A DNA stretch of 64,000 bases from Anaerococcus mediterraneensis (GTDB taxonomy: Bacteria; Bacillota; Clostridia; Tissierellales; Peptoniphilaceae): positions 1,116,001 to 1,180,000 of the forward strand of contig NZ_LT635772.1 of NCBI RefSeq assembly GCF_900128415.1, read 5' to 3'. The notes under the pieces were generated by a model, which saw nothing but the letters and a program-made list of their open reading frames with translations, was not told the origin of the DNA and ran no database searches. Made by a program: the position numbers and the translations under genes. Below, in pieces: positions 4,500 through 64,000 of the stretch; the first letter of the stretch is position 1; each line of letters begins with the position of its first letter.

Positions 4500-4916
4500 T
4501 TAAGACTTATTTATACAGGATTTTAGATAAGTATATAGAAAATAAAAAGCAAAAGATAAGCTTATATGTCCAATACCAGCTAGGCCAGATATACTAGCAC
4601 TAAGAGCTGGATTTTCTAGGCCTTTTATTTGATAAAAACCTCTTGCGCCTATAGTTAAAACTGTCAATATGAGACCAAGGTTATAGGTTATAAAAAATTT
4701 TTTTTCTTTTTTATCTTCTTCCATATCAAATACTTTTGCAAATAAAGTGAGTATTAGAAATAAAATTAATCCCAAAACTAGAGTATGGGTGTGAGCCAAT
4801 CCTAGGTTTGTCGGTTTATAAAAGCCAATTATTCTAGTAAATTCCCTATAAAAAGCCCCTAGGAATATCCCGATTAGGGCATAGATAAATGATGTTTTGA
4901 AGTATTTTTTAGTCAT
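4500..4916 (-). CDS. DUF2871-like membrane protein
   Basis: 138 residues, four predicted membrane helices. The N-terminus (KTSFIYALIGIFLGAFYREFTRI) and the GLAHTHTLVLG segment with two histidines, at about residues 38-48, match my memory of the DUF2871 family. No function is established. Its start overlaps the end of the upstream membrane protein gene by 8 nt, so the two are translationally coupled. Both lie under a promoter region with a TetR-like operator. Confidence 0.72.
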   Translation of the reverse strand: MTKKYFKTSFIYALIGIFLGAFYREFTRIIGFYKPTNLGLAHTHTLVLGLILFLILTLFAKVFDMEEDKKEKKFFITYNLGLILTVLTIGARGFYQIKGLENPALSASISGLAGIGHISLSFAFYFLYTYLKSCINKS

Positions 4917-5577
4917 TTTTCTCTCCTTTCATAGCCTTATATCCAATTAAAATTGTCCATATATAGGCACAAGTTTTTGGTATCATTAGAACACCGATAG
5001 TTGGTAGGGTATTTTCGAAGATTACAACAGGTAGATAAAATCCAAAGCTTAAAACAATGGTAAGCCAAAGATTTTTAAAGGCAAGGTCATTTTTTTCTCT
5101 TGATTTTTTATAAAATATTACAATTATTAATATGCCTAATAAGGTAAAAGGAATATTTCTATATATGGCCCAAGCAAATGGTGAATTTGCTATTGTAAAT
5201 TTATTTTCTGGGCAAAGGACCAATAATATCCTAAGTACAGCAAGGATCCAAACTAAGATGCTTAATCTTTTTTTATCTTTTACCTCATAACGAGATCTCC
5301 AGATATAATATAAGATCAGGTAAAAAATAGTCATTGTTATAGATGTGATAAGCTTACCGATACCCAAAGATACACCATAGTTATCAAGTCCTGATGTATT
5401 TAGGGCTATTGCCCTTGGTACTAAGTGAAAGGCATCACCAAATCCTAAAGTTAGAGCCATCAAACCAAAAAGAAAATACTCTTTATTATCCTTTCCTTCT
5501 TTTAGCATTTTTATACCTAAGATTATAACTGTGCTTAGGTAAAAAATGTCAAATAATGTTTCAAAAATTGCTTGCAT
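4909..5577 (-). CDS. multi-pass membrane protein, unknown function
   Basis: 222 residues with about seven predicted helices. A central GFGDAFHLVPRAIALN segment carries charged and histidine residues inside a membrane context. I recognise it only as a conserved Firmicutes membrane protein. The start at 5577 (ATG) is chosen because AAGGAG sits 6-7 nt upstream; the longer reading begins at TTG 5598, inside the operator palindrome. It overlaps the DUF2871 gene. A 13-bp palindrome directly upstream matches the one before the adjacent TetR gene, so repression by that regulator is likely. Confidence 0.75.
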   Translation of the reverse strand: MQAIFETLFDIFYLSTVIILGIKMLKEGKDNKEYFLFGLMALTLGFGDAFHLVPRAIALNTSGLDNYGVSLGIGKLITSITMTIFYLILYYIWRSRYEVKDKKRLSILVWILAVLRILLVLCPENKFTIANSPFAWAIYRNIPFTLLGILIIVIFYKKSREKNDLAFKNLWLTIVLSFGFYLPVVIFENTLPTIGVLMIPKTCAYIWTILIGYKAMKGEKND

Positions 5578-5591
5578 ATTTAACTCCTTAT

Positions 5592-5604
5592 TGAACAATG
5601 TTCA
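5592..5604. promoter_or_regulatory. putative TetR operator upstream of the membrane gene pair
   Basis: Perfect 13-bp palindrome TGAACAATGTTCA immediately upstream of the ribosome site of the 5577 gene. The same TGAACA-N-TGTTCA core recurs in front of the neighbouring tetR gene. A shared operator for autoregulation and target repression is the simplest reading. Confidence 0.7.
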
Positions 5605-5641
5605 TTTTTATCCAAGTAGAACCCTCCATATAAAGTGAGGA

Positions 5642-6190
5642 TTAATACAAGGCTTTTTTAATTATCATAATAAGCAAATCCTGGTCATAATTTTTTTCTA
5701 CTATAAAGCAGACGCTTGTAGATATAATAAATTTAACCAGGTCTTCTTTTGTAAAGTTTTTATCAAAGGCATCAGGCCTTATATTTTTATCCCTGTCAAG
5801 GATATGGATCATATTTTCCCTAACCCTTTCTAGGTATGTATCCATAGAATCTTTGGCCTTACCCAAAGCTTTGCTTTTAAAACTTAGGGAGTGGATGGTA
5901 AAAAAATTTGGATATTTTTTTGTACCTGTGCTTAGGTGGTCTAGGATATCTTTTAGGTATAAGATGAAATCATCACCAGACTTTGGTGATTGGTCTATCC
6001 TAAAAATATCCTCCCAAACACTTTCTATGGTGCTGATCATCAAATCGTCTTTAGATGAGAAATAATTATAGATAGAGCCAACAGCAACATTGCACTCTTT
6101 TGCTAGTTTTCTAATGCTAAGCGCATTTAGACCCTCACTAGCTACAAGATGCCTTGATACTTTTAAAATTTCTCCTTTGGATATTATCAT
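5642..6190 (-). CDS. TetR/AcrR-family transcriptional repressor
   Basis: 182 residues. The N-terminal helix-turn-helix covers about residues 8-50 (LNALSIRKLAKECNVAVGSIYNYFSSKDDLM), followed by a variable, mostly helical ligand-binding domain. AAGGAG precedes ATG 6190. A 21-bp perfect palindrome upstream is the probable self-operator, and a matching site lies before the membrane gene pair downstream. The likely regulon is therefore this gene plus the two membrane proteins. The inducer cannot be guessed from sequence. Confidence 0.9.
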   Translation of the reverse strand: MIISKGEILKVSRHLVASEGLNALSIRKLAKECNVAVGSIYNYFSSKDDLMISTIESVWEDIFRIDQSPKSGDDFILYLKDILDHLSTGTKKYPNFFTIHSLSFKSKALGKAKDSMDTYLERVRENMIHILDRDKNIRPDAFDKNFTKEDLVKFIISTSVCFIVEKNYDQDLLIMIIKKALY

Positions 6191-6201
6191 ATATGAACTC
6201 C

Positions 6202-6222
6202 TTAATGAACATTGTTCATTAA
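6202..6222. promoter_or_regulatory. putative TetR self-operator, 21-bp palindrome
   Basis: Both arms read TTAATGAACA around a central T, a perfect inverted repeat ending 11 nt before the tetR start codon. The core TGAACA-N-TGTTCA matches the site at 5592-5604. Confidence 0.75.
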
Positions 6223-6252
6223 TATTATAAGACCAAAATTTAAAATGTCAAT

Positions 6253-6294
6253 AAAAAAAGGCCAGAAATGATCTAGCATTTCAAGCCTTTTTTT
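6253..6294. terminator. terminator of the superoxide reductase gene
   Basis: A-tract plus GGC pairs with GCC plus T-tract, and an inner GAAATG/CATTTC stem extends the hairpin. On the minus strand it lies directly after the 6296 stop codon, and it is symmetric enough to act in both directions. Confidence 0.8.
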
Positions 6295-6295
6295 C

Positions 6296-6652
6296 TTATA
6301 ATTCTATTGCGTTTTGCCATAAACCATGGATATTGCAGTAGCTTATAGCTTGGATTGTACCTTTTTTCTCTGATTTGAATGTACCAACAGCTTTTGGAAC
6401 TGTGTATAGTTCGCCTTCACCATGAGCTGAGAAGTTAAAATCAGCGATTTCTACTGGAAGTTTGCTTCCTTCAGCTAAGAAGAATACCTTGATCCATGAA
6501 ATATGGTGTTCTAGTGTGTTAGGATGTGCGATTTCCTTACCTACACAAGCTGTAACTTCATAGGTGTTATCACCAAGTTCTTTCACTTCGACTTCTGGTA
6601 CGTGTTTTTCGTTTTTCCAATCGCCTGTTTGAACTGTTTCTGTTAAATACAT
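6296..6652 (-). CDS. superoxide reductase (class II desulfoferrodoxin/neelaredoxin)
   Basis: Reduces superoxide to hydrogen peroxide without making oxygen, the typical defence of anaerobes. At 118 residues it consists only of the Fe(Cys)(His)4 domain and lacks the N-terminal desulforedoxin domain. The expected ligands are visible: E15 and H17 in EKHVP, H43 and H49 in AHPNTLEHH, and C106 and H109 in CNIHG. AGGAGGACAAA precedes the ATG. It is monocistronic, with its own terminator. Confidence 0.93.
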   Translation of the reverse strand: MYLTETVQTGDWKNEKHVPEVEVKELGDNTYEVTACVGKEIAHPNTLEHHISWIKVFFLAEGSKLPVEIADFNFSAHGEGELYTVPKAVGTFKSEKKGTIQAISYCNIHGLWQNAIEL

Positions 6653-6739
6653 TTTGTCCTCCTAAATTTTAAAAAGTATCTACATTAATAAGATACCCTT
6701 TTTGGAGAAAAATACTATATTGATTTAAAATTAATCTAA

Positions 6740-7060
6740 TTATAAGTTTTTTACTTGTCTTTCTCTTATTTTATCATAATAGGTTTTTCTTTTTGGATTT
6801 TCCTTAAACCATCCTTTGAGTACTCGTTTTTCTTGCTCTATGACCTCTCCAACTGACCAAAAACAGCAACAGGCTATGACTCCAGCAAAGATACTAAGTA
6901 TGAGAGATTTTATATAAATCGATAAGGCAACAAAAATTATACCTGCGAGTATAAAAAACTTGTTTATCTTTCGACCAAAATAATATTCTCCTTTAATAAC
7001 GAGCGGATGAAAAATTCCTATAAGGAAAAACGTAACTACTCCAATTATAATTCCTTCCAT
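6740..7060 (-). CDS. DUF4491-like small membrane protein
   Basis: 107 residues. Three hydrophobic segments are followed by a basic, soluble tail (EQEKRVLKGWFKENPKRK). The opening [26 protein letters not shown] pattern fits my memory of DUF4491, a family of unknown function. AAGGAGGATTT before the ATG at 7060 decides the start; the longer reading from 7105 has no ribosome site. No terminator or partner gene is obvious. Confidence 0.7.
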   Translation of the reverse strand: MEGIIIGVVTFFLIGIFHPLVIKGEYYFGRKINKFFILAGIIFVALSIYIKSLILSIFAGVIACCCFWSVGEVIEQEKRVLKGWFKENPKRKTYYDKIRERQVKNL

Positions 7061-7228
7061 AAATCCTCCTTGTTTTATTATCATATATATTGGAATTTTG
7101 GTCAAATATTTAGAAAATCCTTAAAAATTAGGAATGTAAAAGCATTTTTACATAAAAAAACTTGGGTGTAAAGTGATATAGATAGACTAGATATGAATAA
7201 TTTTTTAATATAGATTTAGGAGGTAAAA

Positions 7229-7633
7229 ATGAAAATTGGAGATAAATTAAAAAATGCCAGGCTAAAAAAATCCATGACCCAAGAGGAGGTTGCAGAAAAA
7301 CTTTTTGTTTCAAGACAGTCAATTTCAAATTGGGAAAATAACAAAACTTATCCTGACATAGGAAATGTAATTGCCTTATCTGACTTATACGAAATAAGTC
7401 TAGATGAGCTCTTAAAAGGGAGTGATAATTTTATGAAACATTTGGAAGAATCAACAGATATTGTAAAATCAAATAAAAAACTCATATTTTTTATAGGTCT
7501 TGCCTTGATAGCAATGATTGTAATGGCGATTTTTACAGAATTTTTGCCGGAAAAAGTATTTCTACTTGCTATATTTAGCCTAGCAGTAATAGTAACAGGC
7601 TTAGTATATAGTGAGATTATTAAAAGATTTTAG
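7229..7633 (+). CDS. Xre-family regulator with C-terminal membrane helices
   Basis: 134 residues. The N-terminal helix-turn-helix (about residues 6-60) contains the classic MTQEEVAEKLFVSRQSISNWENNKTYPD sequence. It is followed by a linker and two hydrophobic helices (about 86-106 and 110-130). Membrane-tethered Xre proteins of this layout are common in Firmicutes and often control their neighbour. The neighbour here is an unknown membrane protein 9 nt downstream. TAGGAGGT precedes the ATG. Confidence 0.88.
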   Translation: MKIGDKLKNARLKKSMTQEEVAEKLFVSRQSISNWENNKTYPDIGNVIALSDLYEISLDELLKGSDNFMKHLEESTDIVKSNKKLIFFIGLALIAMIVMAIFTEFLPEKVFLLAIFSLAVIVTGLVYSEIIKRF

Positions 7634-36699: not shown

Positions 36700-36714
36700 T
36701 AGGTTGTAAAGATA

Positions 36715-36832
36715 AATATCTTCAGGGCGGAGTGAAATTCTCCACCGGCAGTTATAGTCTGCGAGCGTTAGCCGAATCGGTGAAATTCCGATACCGACAG
36801 TATAGTCTGGATGAGAGAAGTATTATATTTTA
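36715..36832 (+). ncRNA. FMN riboswitch (RFN element)
   Basis: The conserved blocks are all present: ATCTTCAGGGCGGAGTGAAA, the CTCCACCGGCAGT segment, GCGAGCG, GGTGAAATTCCGATACCGACAGT and GGATGAGAGAAG. It binds FMN and controls the rib operon below through the terminator hairpin at 36853-36875. Confidence 0.97.
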
Positions 36833-55582: not shown

Positions 55583-57179
55583 CAGAGCGTCGACAAACCC
55601 ACTAATAAATTGGGAGTGTTGGCGCTTTTTCTATATTTATTTTAAAATATATTAATTTTTCAAATAATAACGTAAACTCTTTAGTAAACAGAGGAAAATT
55701 ACCTCCATCTCCGTCTAATCTATCCAGTAATTTTGCTAATTTTTTTATATTTAGGCACGCAAAAGTTAGTGCCGCTTTCATACTCATTTTTTCCTTACCT
55801 ATCATATTGGTATATCTAAAACTATGGTATTCTTTAGCACTTCCGAATTGTCTTTCTATTGTTTCTTTTCTTTGCTTATATTCTGCTTTTCCTGCTTTGG
55901 TTAGTCTGTACCATTCACAATAGTCTATGTATCCTTGCCATATATGCCTTATTATTACTTTTACCTTGCTTTTACTTTTTGTACATTTGCTTAAAGATGG
56001 GCAGTCTTCACATAAGCTTTTCTTGCTTTTATATATTCTGTAGCCTTCTCGTTTTGTTGTTGAGTACAGGAGTATTTTGTTTTCTGGGCATATGTAGCAG
56101 TCGTTCGTTTCGTCATATTTATATTCTTTTGGATAGAAAGATTCTTTATCGTTTCTTCTTCCTTTTGGTTTTGTATATGGTAAGACTGGCATTATTCCTT
56201 TTTCTATTAGTTCTTTTGCTATTGCTGGTATTTTGTATCCTGCATCCATTACTATCTTTTCTGACTTGTATTTTTCTAATTTTTCTTTGAAGAATGATGG
56301 GAAGGTTGTTGAGTCGTGTAGGTTTCCTGGATAGGCTTTGTATCCTAAGATCCATCCATTTTTATCACATGATGTTTGGATTGAGTATGCGTATACTTCT
56401 TTGTGGTTTCCTTTATGGAATAGTCCACTTTCTGGATCTGTTGTTGATTGACTTATTTCTTTTTCTTCTAATATTTCACCATCTGGGTAATCAAAGTCAT
56501 CTTTTCCATTTTTGTTTCTGTCTTCATTTACTTCTTTTTCTAGTTTTCTTTGATAGGATTTTACTTTTTTCTTTATTTTTACTTTTTGACTTTTATGTCT
56601 GTTGGCGTGGGCTTTTACATGGGTTGAGTCTACAAATTGTATTTTTGTGTCTACGAATCCATAGCTCATTGCTTGGTCTAGGATGTTTTCGAATATTTGA
56701 TTGAATATGTCTGTGTTTTTAAATCTTCTTTCATAGTTTTTCCCGAAGGTTGAAAAGTGTGGAACTTTATCGTAGAAGTCTAGACCTAAAAACCATCGAT
56801 AGGCTATGTTTACTTCTACTTCTTTTATTGTTTGCCTCATGCTGTTTATGTTGAAGAAGTATTGTAGGATTACAAGCTTTATTAATACTACTGGGTCTAT
56901 ACTTGGTCTTCCTGTTGTTTGTGAGTATTTATCTTCTACTAGATCGTATATGAAGTTGAAGTCTATGTATTTGTCTATTTTTCTTAATATGTGATCTTTT
57001 GGGACCAATTGTTCTACTGATACCATTTGAACTTGTTCGGTGTTATTTTTTTCATTTTTGTATAGCATAACTTCCTCCATCTTTAGTATACTTATACCCA
57101 AAAATGGCTTGATTTAAGCGTTTATCGCATAGAAAAAGTAGATGAAGTTTTGTTTTTCATCTACTTTGTCTACAGTCTG
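55583..57179. mobile_element. IS1182-like insertion sequence, apparently complete
   Basis: About 1.6 kb between the duplicated targets. Terminal inverted repeats are imperfect: CAGAGCGTCGACAAA at the left and CAGACTGTAGACAAA read inward from the right (12 of 15 match). It carries one intact transposase gene. A long hairpin (AAAGTAGATGAA/TTCATCTACTTT, about 57134-57168) stands between the right end and the gene, and probably blocks transcripts entering from outside. The insertion inside a hairpin fits the known liking of IS1182 relatives for palindromes. Confidence 0.88.
55602..57068 (-). CDS. IS1182-family transposase
   Basis: 488 residues, uninterrupted. The N-terminal domain has YSQTTGRPSIDPVVLIKLVILQYFFNI. 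The catalytic core shows D in FVDSTHVKAHAN, D in IVMDAGYKIPA and E in KETIERQFGSAKEYHSFRYTN (DDE triad). A cysteine cluster (CYICPENK, CEDCPSLSKC) lies between the last two. GGAGGAAGTT before ATG 57068 decides the start; the reading from 57101 is longer but has no site. Likely active, as no stop or frameshift is seen. Confidence 0.93.
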   Translation of the reverse strand: MLYKNEKNNTEQVQMVSVEQLVPKDHILRKIDKYIDFNFIYDLVEDKYSQTTGRPSIDPVVLIKLVILQYFFNINSMRQTIKEVEVNIAYRWFLGLDFYDKVPHFSTFGKNYERRFKNTDIFNQIFENILDQAMSYGFVDTKIQFVDSTHVKAHANRHKSQKVKIKKKVKSYQRKLEKEVNEDRNKNGKDDFDYPDGEILEEKEISQSTTDPESGLFHKGNHKEVYAYSIQTSCDKNGWILGYKAYPGNLHDSTTFPSFFKEKLEKYKSEKIVMDAGYKIPAIAKELIEKGIMPVLPYTKPKGRRNDKESFYPKEYKYDETNDCYICPENKILLYSTTKREGYRIYKSKKSLCEDCPSLSKCTKSKSKVKVIIRHIWQGYIDYCEWYRLTKAGKAEYKQRKETIERQFGSAKEYHSFRYTNMIGKEKMSMKAALTFACLNIKKLAKLLDRLDGDGGNFPLFTKEFTLLFEKLIYFKINIEKAPTLPIY

Positions 57180-60686: not shown

Positions 60687-60715
60687 TTGACAAAATAATA
60701 AGTATATCATATAAT
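60687..60715 (+). promoter_or_regulatory. promoter of T-box unit 1
   Basis: TTGACA (60687-60692), 17-nt spacer, TATAAT (60710-60715), full consensus. Confidence 0.88.
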
Positions 60716-60728
60716 ACGATTATCAAAT

Positions 60729-60987
60729 AAAAGCGAAGACGTGGAAGAGTAGTAAGTATAGTCTTTCAGAGAGGTGCTGGTAGGTGAAAAGCACTAAGAT
60801 AAAACTTTCGAAAATCACCACCAAGCTGTTTCGCCGAAAAGTAGGCGGATTCGGGAGCTCCCGTTATAGAGCTATTCATTATGTGAATTGAGTGCATCAA
60901 TTGATGAAGAAGAGTGGTACCGCGGAGAGTTTTAAATTTACAACCTTCGTCTCTTTAACCTATGGGTTTAAAGAGACGAAGGTTTTT
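60729..60987 (+). ncRNA. T-box leader 1, specifier read as AUC (Ile)
   Basis: Stem I closes with GTGG (60741-60744) and CCAC (60818-60821). The triplet before the purine that precedes CCAC is ATC (60814-60816), an Ile codon. The AGAGAGGTGCTGG and GGTAGGTG distal-loop signatures are present. The universal T-box sequence AGAGTGGTACCGCGG lies at 60911-60925. The terminator arms AACCTTCGTCTCTTT and AAAGAGACGAAGGTT (60942-60982) run into seven T. Uncharged tRNA-Ile should permit read-through into the binding-protein gene. Confidence 0.9.
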
Positions 60988-61015
60988 TTATTCCCAAAAA
61001 TATATGGAGGAAATT

Positions 61016-62203
61016 ATGAATCTAAGAAAAAAATTTGCAGTTGGAATGTTACTAGCAGGGATGTTTTTATCAGCATGCTCAAACTCTGATAAGCCTTCAG
61101 AAAATAATGATTCCAAGGCAGGTAAAGAAAAAAGTCAAGCTGGAGATACTATAAAACTTGGTAACTCAGCTCCTCTTACAGGTCCTGTATCTGTCTATGG
61201 AATCACAACCAATAATGGTATTAAACTAGCTATAGAAGAAATAAATAAAGATGGTGGAATCCTAGATAAACAAATTGAATGGTTTGAGATGGATGATAAG
61301 GGAGAGATAACAGATGCTGTTACGAACTATAACAAGCTAATGCAAAACGAAGTAAGCGCTATATTTGGAGGTGTACCATCAAAGCCAGCCCTAGCAATAG
61401 CAGAGTCTGCAGCTAACGATGATGTAGTTTATATAACTCCAACTGGTACTCTAGCTAACATCACAGAAGGAAAAGAAAATGCATTTAGAACTTGCTTTAT
61501 TGATCCATTCCAAGGTGAGGTTCTAGCTAGATTTTCTAAAGATAAACTATCAGCTAAGAAAGTAGCAGTTCTAAGAAATCAATCTTCTGATTTTTCTATG
61601 GGAGTGGCAAATATATTTGTAGAAAAAGCCAAAGAATTGGGCATGGAAGTAGTAGCGGATGAGTCGTACGGAGATAATGATACAGACTTTAAGGCACAGC
61701 TAACAAATATCAAAAGCCAAAATCCTGATGTATTATTTATACCAGATTATTATGAAAAAGTAGCCTTGATGGTTCCACAAGTAAGACAAGCTGATATAGA
61801 CGCAACTCTAGTTGGTGCAGATGGATGGGATACAGTTTTATCAGTAATGGACCCATCAAACTTTGAAGCGATAGAAGGCTCATATTTTGCAAACCAATTT
61901 ACCCTAGAAGATCCAAGTGAAAGAGTACAAAAATTTATAAAAGAATACAAAGAGAAATACGGCGAAGACCCATCAACATTTGCAGCAGAAGGCTATGATA
62001 CAGTTTACCTATACAAACAAGCAGTAGAAGAAGCTGGTAGCACAGATACAAAGGCAGTTTGCCAGGCTTTAAAAAATATAAAATTTGATGGTTTAACTGG
62101 ATCATTTACCTATGATGAGAATAACAATCCTGTAAAATCAGCAAAAATGATAAAAATAGAAAATGGCAAGTATAAATTTGATTCTGAGGTAGATCCTAAT
62201 TAA
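61016..62203 (+). CDS. LivJ-like amino-acid-binding lipoprotein (unit 1)
   Basis: 395 residues. Signal peptide with lipobox LSAC, so the mature protein would be lipid-anchored at C21. The Leu/Ile/Val-binding (periplasmic-binding type I) fold starts IKLGNSAPLTGPVSVYGITTNNGIKLAIEEIN. The GGAGG in front of ATG 61016 fixes the start. A T-box with an Ile specifier controls it. No permease or ATPase lies between this and the next paralogue, so the transporter body must be encoded elsewhere or further right. Confidence 0.92.
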   Translation: MNLRKKFAVGMLLAGMFLSACSNSDKPSENNDSKAGKEKSQAGDTIKLGNSAPLTGPVSVYGITTNNGIKLAIEEINKDGGILDKQIEWFEMDDKGEITDAVTNYNKLMQNEVSAIFGGVPSKPALAIAESAANDDVVYITPTGTLANITEGKENAFRTCFIDPFQGEVLARFSKDKLSAKKVAVLRNQSSDFSMGVANIFVEKAKELGMEVVADESYGDNDTDFKAQLTNIKSQNPDVLFIPDYYEKVALMVPQVRQADIDATLVGADGWDTVLSVMDPSNFEAIEGSYFANQFTLEDPSERVQKFIKEYKEKYGEDPSTFAAEGYDTVYLYKQAVEEAGSTDTKAVCQALKNIKFDGLTGSFTYDENNNPVKSAKMIKIENGKYKFDSEVDPN

Positions 62204-62242
62204 AAAATTTGACAAAAATCAAATATGAGTATAAAATGACTG

Positions 62243-62515
62243 CATAAAGATAAAGACTAAGAAGTGGAAAAGACCCCATTATAGTTTTATCAGAGAGTTG
62301 CTGGTTGGTGAGAAGCAATAAAGCATAAAGGGTCGGTTCGCCACGGAGTTGTTCACTGAAATTTTAGTATGTGGTACCGTAAGCTCACGTTATAGAGATA
62401 TTCATTAGATTGAAGCTGAGTGCATCAAAAGGATGAAGAAGAGTGGTACCGCGGGGCTAATTGTAATTTCAAACCTCGTCTCTTTGCATATTATGTAGAA
62501 GAGACGAGGTTTTTT
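62243..62515 (+). ncRNA. T-box leader 2, specifier read as UUC (Phe)
   Basis: A promoter TTGACA (62209-62214) with TATAAA/TAAAAT lies just upstream. Stem I: GTGG (62264-62267) with CCAC (62341-62344), and GACCC with GGGTC above. Between them on the 3' side is GGTTCG, giving TTC (62337-62339) followed by G. AGAGTGGTACCGCGG lies at 62440-62454. Terminator arms AACCTCGTCTCTT/AAGAGACGAGGTT run into T (62472-62515). Phe is the best reading but less secure than unit 1, since the surrounding loop is short. Confidence 0.85.
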
Positions 62516-62534
62516 CTACGTTTAGGAGGAAAAT

Positions 62535-63701
62535 ATGAACACAAAAAGAAAATTATTAGCAGTCGCAACAAGTTTAGCCTTGATATTAGCAGGATGCAAT
62601 GGCAAGGCTGGTACTAATGAAAATGTTGAAAACAAAGATAATGATACGGTTAAACTTGGAGTAATAACTCCACAAACAGGTCCTGTATCAATATATGGCA
62701 AGGCTAATGAAAATGGGATCAAACTTGCCGCAAAAGAGATAAATGAAAAAGGCGGCATAGATGGTAAAAAAATCGAACTAATAATCATGGATGATAAGGG
62801 AGAATTAACAGAAGCTGTCACTTCATATAATAAATTATTAGAAGAAAATGTTGACCTAGTCATAGGAGCCTTTACATCCAAACCATCCTTGGCCGTAGCT
62901 GAAACAGCTGTGAATTATGACCTACCAGTTATAACACCAGGTGGTACCCAAGAAGAAATCACCCAAGGAAAGGAAAATGTTTTTAGGCAGACTTTTACAA
63001 ATTCTTACCAAGGATCACTTCTTGCAATTTTTGCCAAGGACAATCTAAAAGCAAAAACCGCAGCTATTCTAAAAAACAGTTCTGACGATTATTCTACTGG
63101 TATAGCCAAAGCCTTTTCAGATAAGGCCAAGGAATTGGGCATAGAAATTGTAGCAGAGGAATCTTATGGAGCTAATGATACGGATTTCAAAGCCCAGCTT
63201 ACAAGTATTAGAAAAGAGAATCCTGATATCTTATTATTGCCAGATTATTATGAAAAGCTCACACTGATAATGCCACAGGCTAGAGAAGTTGGAATACAAT
63301 CAACCTTTATAGGTCCTGATGGCTGGGCTGGATTCTTACAAGCCCTTGATAAGTCTTCTTATGAGGATGTAAACAATTCTTACTATAATGATCATTTTGC
63401 TATAGATTCTACAGAAGATATAGTAGCAGATTTTGTAAAAAACTATAGAGAGGAATACAAAGAAGATCCAATATCACCATCGGCCCTAGGCTATGATAGT
63501 GTATATTTAGCAAAACAGGCTCTAGAAGAAGCAAAAACAACTGATCATAAAGAGGTCACAAAAGCTTTGAAAAATATAGATTTCAAAGGAGTCACTGGAA
63601 GTTTTAAATTTGATGAAAATAATAATCCAGTCAAATCTTCGACAATGATAAAAATCGAAGACGGGAAATACAAATTTGAAACTGTAGTCAAACCAAGATA
63701 A
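62535..63701 (+). CDS. LivJ-like amino-acid-binding lipoprotein (unit 2)
   Basis: 388 residues, lipobox LAGC with C21 as lipidation site. It aligns along its length with the unit 1 protein (VKLGVITPQTGPVSIYGKANENGIKLAAKEIN; YGANDTDFKAQLTSIR; GSFKFDENNNPVKSSTMIKIEDGKYKF). Differences cluster in the predicted ligand region, for example GPDGWAGFL against GADGWDTVL. AGGAGGAAAAT precedes the ATG. Its T-box reads Phe, so it may prefer an aromatic amino acid. That is inference. Confidence 0.92.
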   Translation: MNTKRKLLAVATSLALILAGCNGKAGTNENVENKDNDTVKLGVITPQTGPVSIYGKANENGIKLAAKEINEKGGIDGKKIELIIMDDKGELTEAVTSYNKLLEENVDLVIGAFTSKPSLAVAETAVNYDLPVITPGGTQEEITQGKENVFRQTFTNSYQGSLLAIFAKDNLKAKTAAILKNSSDDYSTGIAKAFSDKAKELGIEIVAEESYGANDTDFKAQLTSIRKENPDILLLPDYYEKLTLIMPQAREVGIQSTFIGPDGWAGFLQALDKSSYEDVNNSYYNDHFAIDSTEDIVADFVKNYREEYKEDPISPSALGYDSVYLAKQALEEAKTTDHKEVTKALKNIDFKGVTGSFKFDENNNPVKSSTMIKIEDGKYKFETVVKPR

Positions 63702-63740
63702 TTAAATATTCAAAAAAAAGTATTATTATTTAAAAAATGA

Positions 63741-63768
63741 TTGACAAATAGATTTATGAACATATAAT
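63741..63768 (+). promoter_or_regulatory. promoter of T-box unit 3
   Basis: TTGACA (63741-63746), 16-nt spacer, TATAAT (63763-63768). The third unit repeats the arrangement of the first two. Confidence 0.82.
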
Positions 63769-63774
63769 ATCTTC

Positions 63775-64000
63775 ATACAAATCTAAAAGCTAAGAAGTGG
63801 AATATTATAAGTCATTCATTTTTATAGAGAGGTATTGTTTGGTGCAAAATACCAAAATGAACCTTAGAACTAGCCACCAAGCCACACATTGAACTAATAG
63901 TAGGTGTTGTCGGGAACTCCCGTTACAGAGTTATTCATTAAAATGATCAAAGTGCATCAATTGATGAAGAAGAGTGGCACCGCGGAGTTGGTTAATAAAT
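63775..64000 (+). ncRNA. T-box leader 3 (cut by window end), specifier read as CUA (Leu)
   Basis: Stem I GTGG and CCAC frame GAACTAG; the triplet before the final G is CTA, a Leu codon. AGAGAGGTATTGTTTGGTG gives the distal loop. The T-box sequence reads AGAGTGGCACCGCGG near the end, with one base different from units 1 and 2. The terminator and the gene lie outside the window. A third binding-protein paralogue is expected. Confidence 0.85.

Follow-up and report, generated by a model that had tools for sequence, protein, structure and literature searches.

Results

Three receptor cassettes before one importer

Why would a single amino-acid importer be preceded by three receptor genes, each behind a tRNA-sensing T-box leader of its own? 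This question is raised by an array at the 3' end of a 64,000-nucleotide window (positions 1116001-1180000) of the closed, 2.08 Mb genome of Anaerococcus mediterraneensis, which was followed beyond the window on the stretch L016 (window position = L016 position + 59999). The array comprises three cassettes with three specifiers, each with T-box and terminator parts, and one importer after cassette 3; across species, specifier and receptor clade are inherited together. From these features, promoter, transcriptional T-box and LivJ-like lipoprotein probably form receptor cassettes serving the one livHMGF importer, in which case the mix of receptors would follow the amino acid in short supply. The parts are located as follows (window positions).

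60687..60715, + strand: promoter 1, TTGACA-17-TATAAT, consensus 12/12
60727..60957, + strand: T-box 1, specifier AUC (Ile), core UGGU; RF00230, 131.4 bits, E 6e-29
60942..60989, + strand: terminator 1, T run present; overlaps the 3' arm of the antiterminator
61016..62203, + strand: receptor 1, LivJ-like lipoprotein, 395 amino acids; Peripla_BP_6, 3.5e-67; start after GGAGG
62209..62237, + strand: promoter 2, TTGACA-17-TAAAAT, consensus 11/12, starting 6 bases past the receptor 1 stop
62250..62486, + strand: T-box 2, specifier UUC (Phe), core UGGU; 103.6 bits, E 9e-22
62471..62512, + strand: terminator 2, by folding
62535..63701, + strand: receptor 2, LivJ-like lipoprotein, 388 amino acids; Peripla_BP_6, 2.5e-67
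63741..63768, + strand: promoter 3, TTGACA-16-TATAAT, consensus 12/12
63783..64000, on to 64022, + strand: T-box 3, specifier CUA (Leu), core UGGC; E 3e-19 when cut at the window end, 111.4 bits at full length
about 64007-64047, past the window: terminator 3
64077-65222, past the window: receptor 3, LivJ-like; PF13458, 3.8e-61
65238-66125, past the window: livH
66129-67106, past the window: livM
67096-67878, past the window: livG
67891-68604, past the window: livF
about 68612, past the window: last terminator, after livF, from the terminator scan

T-boxes were called with the Rfam RF00230 covariance model, and all three of the array exceed its curated cut-off of 93 bits. A competing antiterminator and terminator, as in transcriptional (class I) T-boxes, are present in every unit, the antiterminator stretches folding at -10.6, -10.4 and -12.5 kcal/mol and the 60-base terminator stretches at -26.6, -26.3 and -27.7 kcal/mol (units 1, 2 and 3, respectively). 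Terminators 1, 2 and 3 were revealed by this folding and were not listed by a simple consensus terminator scan. T-box 2 has a degenerate Stem I AGUA/GAA motif in the leader alignment. The three promoters, near-perfect sigma-70 sites, are the top three forward sites in the 8.1 kb scanned, where by number alone the excess is modest (43 sites, shuffled sequence giving 31.8 +/- 5.8). The scan lists none on the forward strand between T-box 3 and livH (4005 to 5334 of L016). An alternative, longer start of receptor 1 at 60962 falls inside terminator 1.

A lipoprotein cysteine was recognized by eye in all three receptors (LSAC, LAGC and FAGC). Identity to receptor 3 is 51% for receptor 1 and 55% for receptor 2, and a genome search with receptor 3 (E<=1e-3) matched only the three array receptors. 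The best NCBIfam matches of the importer genes are LivH, LivM, LivG and LivF, all under the cut-offs of those models. By receptor family and livHMGF neighbors, the receptors are of the LivJ/LivK (HAAT) type. The preliminary description of this locus had reported three promoter and T-box copies, two of them followed by related LivJ-like lipoproteins, and had proposed a search for a third paralogue and livHMGF after position 64000. The copies and both open reading frames (ORFs) were recovered, each box being followed by its own LivJ-like ORF with no permease between units 1 and 2, and the third paralogue and livHMGF are present where they were sought.

Other features were noted around the array. 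A transposase-like ORF of 499 amino acids (55602-57101, - strand, named by eye) lies upstream, a BrnQ-type symporter lies 4.5 kb 3' of livF, and an FMN riboswitch (36714-36826, + strand, 107.5 bits) is found in the same window.

The three T-boxes carry different specifiers

Units 1, 2 and 3 show AUC, UUC and CUA, respectively, in the Rfam alignment column that precedes the conserved purine and CC; these are the specifiers that had been assigned beforehand, and they do not belong to one codon family. Cognate tRNA genes, tRNA-Ile(GAU), tRNA-Phe(GAA) and tRNA-Leu(UAG), are present in the genome. Twelve other T-boxes of the genome served as a control, with gene names read by eye from translated ORF starts and no family search. 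Nine of them precede a gene with a nameable amino acid, and the specifier fits in all nine (ACC-thrS, GUU-valS, UUC-pheS, UCC-serS, AUC-ileS, UGG before a Trp transporter-like gene, and three AUG before methionine/sulfur genes); the remaining three (AGA, AAA and UGC) precede transporter genes without an independently nameable substrate. As judged by eye, the variable core base is complementary to cognate tRNA base 73 in 13 of the 14 T-boxes with a clear core, including units 1 and 2, whose UGGU pairs with A73 of tRNA-Ile(GAU) and tRNA-Phe(GAA); the exception is unit 3. The ileS T-box (L014 1501-1689, - strand; AUC) is the only one of the genome's 15 to show no canonical UGGN core in its Rfam match.

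In TBDB, only 2% of leucine specifiers are CUA, compared with 77% for CUC (PMC7778990). Here all seven leucine units surveyed invariably have CUA, which ranks second among leucine codons (103/419) in ten ORFs of the locus and is read directly by tRNA-Leu(UAG). An Asn specifier (AAC) for unit 3, suggested by its UGGC core and G73 of tRNA-Asn, was rejected because six orthologues have UGGU, two of them with the full GAAA-CUA loop.

Specifier and receptor clade are inherited together

Eighteen units were compared from ten genomes, nine Anaerococcus and one of another genus (G085), comprising nine AUC, seven CUA and two UUC units. Each receptor clade has one specifier (18/18): the AUC (9), UUC (2) and CUA (7) receptors each form a single clade on the receptor tree, with support of 100/99 or 100/100. 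When the distant units of G107 and L107 are included, the 20 T-box-linked receptors need two specifier changes, the minimum for three states. The leader tree, for which the specifier columns were retained, also holds a CUA clade and a UUC clade (100/99 and 100/100). All 18 leaders match RF00230, 17 of them above the cut-off and one, the G012 UUC leader, below it (89.7 vs 93), and all 18 units have a promoter matching 11-12 of 12 consensus positions and a hairpin terminator with a T run. A first receptor tree, built without G085, gave the same grouping; the second left out L082 (taken as the same as G047) and L090 (long branch), and the broken receptors of G002 and G018 are in no tree. Such congruence is predicted if sensor and receptor were duplicated as one unit and their specialisation was then fixed, and the earlier suggestion that receptors were duplicated with their sensors is supported, as is their co-inheritance across species. 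Ile is likely the first specifier state, given the AUC outgroups (the root was not inferred).

Within the genus, the receptor is present in 15 of 31 genomes, this one included, and T-box units are found in nine of those 15; in the other six (G002, G013, G018, G027, G028 and G029), a receptor gene, or what is left of one, stands without a T-box at the Rfam cut-off. The cassettes are separable: three Anaerococcus genomes have AUC only (G001, G006 and G009), one CUA only (G019), three AUC-CUA (G005, G022 and G025) and two the full AUC-UUC-CUA array (G000 and G012), and in G085 the units lie apart. The idea that the three-unit array is an oddity of one genome was rejected, as G012 has the same units in the same order. 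The leucine unit adjoins livH in all six Anaerococcus genomes that have one, and in AUC-only genomes the importer sits behind the Ile box. Two degraded loci were also seen. In G018, only the C-terminal portion of a receptor of the leucine type remains, continuing into a livF fragment (L079 4453-5645), with livH, livM and livG not found in the L079 stretch, and in G002 a receptor gene (G002:C4:45827-46963) contains one in-frame TAA.

Beyond the genus, a family search (E<=1e-60) placed the receptor in 51 of 120 genomes. Thirty short loci from this search were scanned with the core pattern, as were 16 longer stretches from 15 further genomes, 13 of the 16 also with Rfam. Two of the 15 genomes yielded receptor-linked T-boxes: in G107, AUC precedes a single livJHMGF operon, and G085 has AUC-receptor-livHMGF at one site and CUA-receptor at another. 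The Leu cassette and livHMGF of G085 share a contig but are separated by about 440 kb, and the 13 kb examined at the cassette contain no liv genes (a second livHMGF elsewhere was not searched for); the cassette adjoins polysaccharide genes and an IS200-like transposase ORF, all named by eye. Among 80 named loci scanned with the core pattern, 11 of them also with Rfam, clear T-boxes were found by the pattern near the receptor in two of four Anaerococcus records (L080 and L081), and Rfam on the 11 other loci added L107, a Tissierellia bin with AUC before livJHMGF. The pattern is insensitive, having missed the L107 liv operon T-box, and absence by pattern alone is therefore weak in the remaining named loci. 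The two surveys are not independent, as the family stretches G040, G047, G048 and G102 overlap with named loci. Adjoining the AUC T-box liv operon of L107, a T-box read as UUC (L107 4482-4722) precedes an ATP-binding cassette (ABC) system (4847-7496) that is TrpXYZ-like by eye.

Probable working of the array

A T-box leader antiterminates with its own uncharged tRNA. Uncharged tRNA-Ile, tRNA-Phe or tRNA-Leu would thus antiterminate the leader of its own cassette and the corresponding receptor would be made; all receptors would dock on the same LivHMGF, and the receptor mix at the cell surface would track the shortage. Leucine shortage would raise importer and receptor 3 together, and shortage of Ile or Phe alone would raise receptor 1 or 2 and mainly change the occupancy of importers made by leak or made earlier. 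The step of which we are least sure is that receptors 1, 2 and 3 would prefer Ile, Phe and Leu, respectively. A need for such uptake is suggested by gene content: no KARI_C (ilvC) match and no prephenate dehydratase match was found in the genome, in searches positive for 14/14 control genomes in both cases, so Ile, Leu, Val and Phe should all have to be imported.

Several observations weigh against this working. In the array, the only way into livHMGF leads past the Leu T-box, and a transcript started at unit 1 or 2 also has to cross the later T-boxes. The preliminary description had the cell swap the binding protein of a shared transporter according to which tRNA is uncharged; of this, the sharing is favored, indirectly, by the single livHMGF of the array and most clearly by the orphan Leu cassette of G085, and a symmetric swap is not supported because livHMGF is gated by T-box 3 alone, with no forward promoter-like site listed between that box and livH. 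Seven further BPD_transp_2 matches elsewhere in the genome are other possible importer partners. The UGGC core of unit 3 mismatches A73 of all four tRNA-Leu genes, a change that may weaken leucine control in this species; it looks recent because the six orthologous Leu units keep UGGU (base 73 being compared for the tRNAs of this genome only). The UUC unit and the three-unit array occur in two genomes only. On the leader tree the AUC leaders do not group as one clade, two distant AUC units (G107 and L107) fall outside the AUC receptor clade, and AUC is followed by C, not the usual purine, in two leaders (L197 2791-3011 of G107 and L069 4025-4264 of G022). The congruence described above would also arise if leader and receptor were simply inherited together. 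Lastly, the pocket differences are suggestive, but clade-specific residues are not significantly enriched in the ligand pocket (4/13 vs 42/346, P 0.059; 2/13 vs 16/346, P 0.116), in tests on 18 receptors (G107 and L107 left out) that both counted position 76, added as a neighbor, and would be weaker without it.

Alternative readings

The receptors might instead all bind branched-chain and aromatic amino acids, with the T-boxes acting as several alarms that only raise general uptake. LivJ of Escherichia coli binds Leu, Ile and Val, which speaks for such breadth. Thirteen positions that we take to form the LivJ/LivK pocket were mapped onto the receptors by alignment, and positions 18, 79, 202, 226 and 227, contacts in LivJ, are identical in 18/18 receptors, which again speaks for breadth; position 102 is the same in 17/18. 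Other positions separate the clades: position 77 is V/I in the AUC clade, F in the UUC clade and N/S in the CUA clade, and in the UUC clade only, position 100 is G (T to G) and position 276 is P (F elsewhere). LivK also has G at position 100 in the alignment, and its structure is reported to have been solved with Phe as well (1USI). The UUC pattern fits a pocket that may be roomier for Phe, with F at 77 pointing the opposite way and the enrichment not significant. The L070 receptor (G019, leucine-type) has A at position 102, presumably a ligand contact, where the other 17 have T. A literature search on LivJ/LivK pocket residues found no paper, and one on shared or orphan binding proteins and LivJ/LivK sharing provided no case used here.

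Wels et al. (2008) argue for broad uptake in the case of T-box-controlled LIVCS symporters and expect ABC systems to be more specific (PMC2494555). However, an alarm of the OR type would place an importer behind every sensor, and here it stands behind one. The divergence of receptors 1 and 2 from receptor 3 and the clade differences at positions 77, 100 and 276 also count against equal receptors, and duplicates of equal function are not expected to hold three clades with three fixed specifiers. We consider uniformly broad receptors unlikely, and favor a receptor mix that follows the shortage.

Less probable still is a priority chain, in which the Ile-Phe-Leu series would form a graded AND and the importer would be fully expressed only under multiple starvation. 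In the intervals from a receptor stop to the following T-box the scan listed no terminator, promoter 2 begins almost directly after receptor 1, and the order AUC-(UUC)-CUA-livH is kept in 5/5 Anaerococcus genomes with at least two units, all of which would suit a chain. However, each unit has a near-perfect promoter, which makes an upstream contribution dispensable; moreover, single-unit genomes exist and the G085 units are apart.

That specifiers were misread, one or two boxes reading the same or another tRNA (e.g., unit 2 as GUU (Val) in the -1 frame), is very improbable: TBDB does consider frames -1, 0 and +1 (PMC7778990), the Stem I loop of unit 2 is degenerate, tRNA-Val also has A73 and valS here uses GUU, but three different codons stand in an Rfam column that fits 9/9 nameable controls, CUA is confirmed by two species with a full-length GAAA-CUA-G-CC loop, and neighboring frames give Asn/Ser in unit 1 and Thr/stop in unit 3.

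Discussion

The receptor cassettes proposed here combine elements already known singly, namely T-box control of ABC systems, tandem T-boxes, paralogues under different T-boxes, and two receptors per importer. E. coli LivJ/LivK with the shared LivHMGF resembles the array in having paralogous receptors of different specificity for one importer, and differs from it in having two receptors and no tRNA sensor per receptor. Among T-box-controlled transporters, Wels et al. (2008) include Ile-specific ABC systems in their table, list co-evolution and divergence of T-box and gene, and describe how, in the B. cereus group, three in-paralogous NSS symporters each stand behind a T-box for another amino acid (Leu, Phe and Trp; PMC2494555). 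In that group whole transporters were duplicated, whereas here receptors only were duplicated and stacked before one importer.

The tandem T-boxes of trp, ilv and thrS leaders, as described in PMC12452182, are like the array in having several complete boxes, each with its own terminator, and two T-boxes upstream of the C. difficile homoserine dehydrogenase are presumed to read different tRNAs (PMC11477304). Contiguous tandem boxes of this kind share one intergenic region before the same gene and serve one operon, whereas here a receptor gene follows each box and separates it from the next. The C. difficile metN operon and a MetQ paralogue (PMC11477304) resemble the array in that a receptor paralogue has its own riboswitch besides the transporter operon; unlike in the array, both riboswitches are SAM-I, with the same ligand class and no swap of specificity. 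The main text of PMC12452182 contains none of the terms 'livJ', COG0683 and COG0559. A literature search, with subscription papers mostly and supplementary tables wholly outside its reach, found no array of paralogous receptors under different tRNAs before one importer.

A wider scheme would make receptor swapping modular and tRNA-addressed, with self-contained cassettes, each for one amino acid, that could be gained, lost, stacked or moved and would fit different specificities to one generic importer, and with the Leu cassette acting as importer throttle; this we hold tentatively and with somewhat more doubt than assent. If true, the charging of individual tRNAs would set the specificity of an importer and not its amount alone, and regulation and specificity would have been duplicated as one unit. 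The specifier would then predict the ligand of each paralogue, providing a natural test of sensor-receptor co-evolution, and T-box specifiers could become a wider annotation tool for binding proteins.

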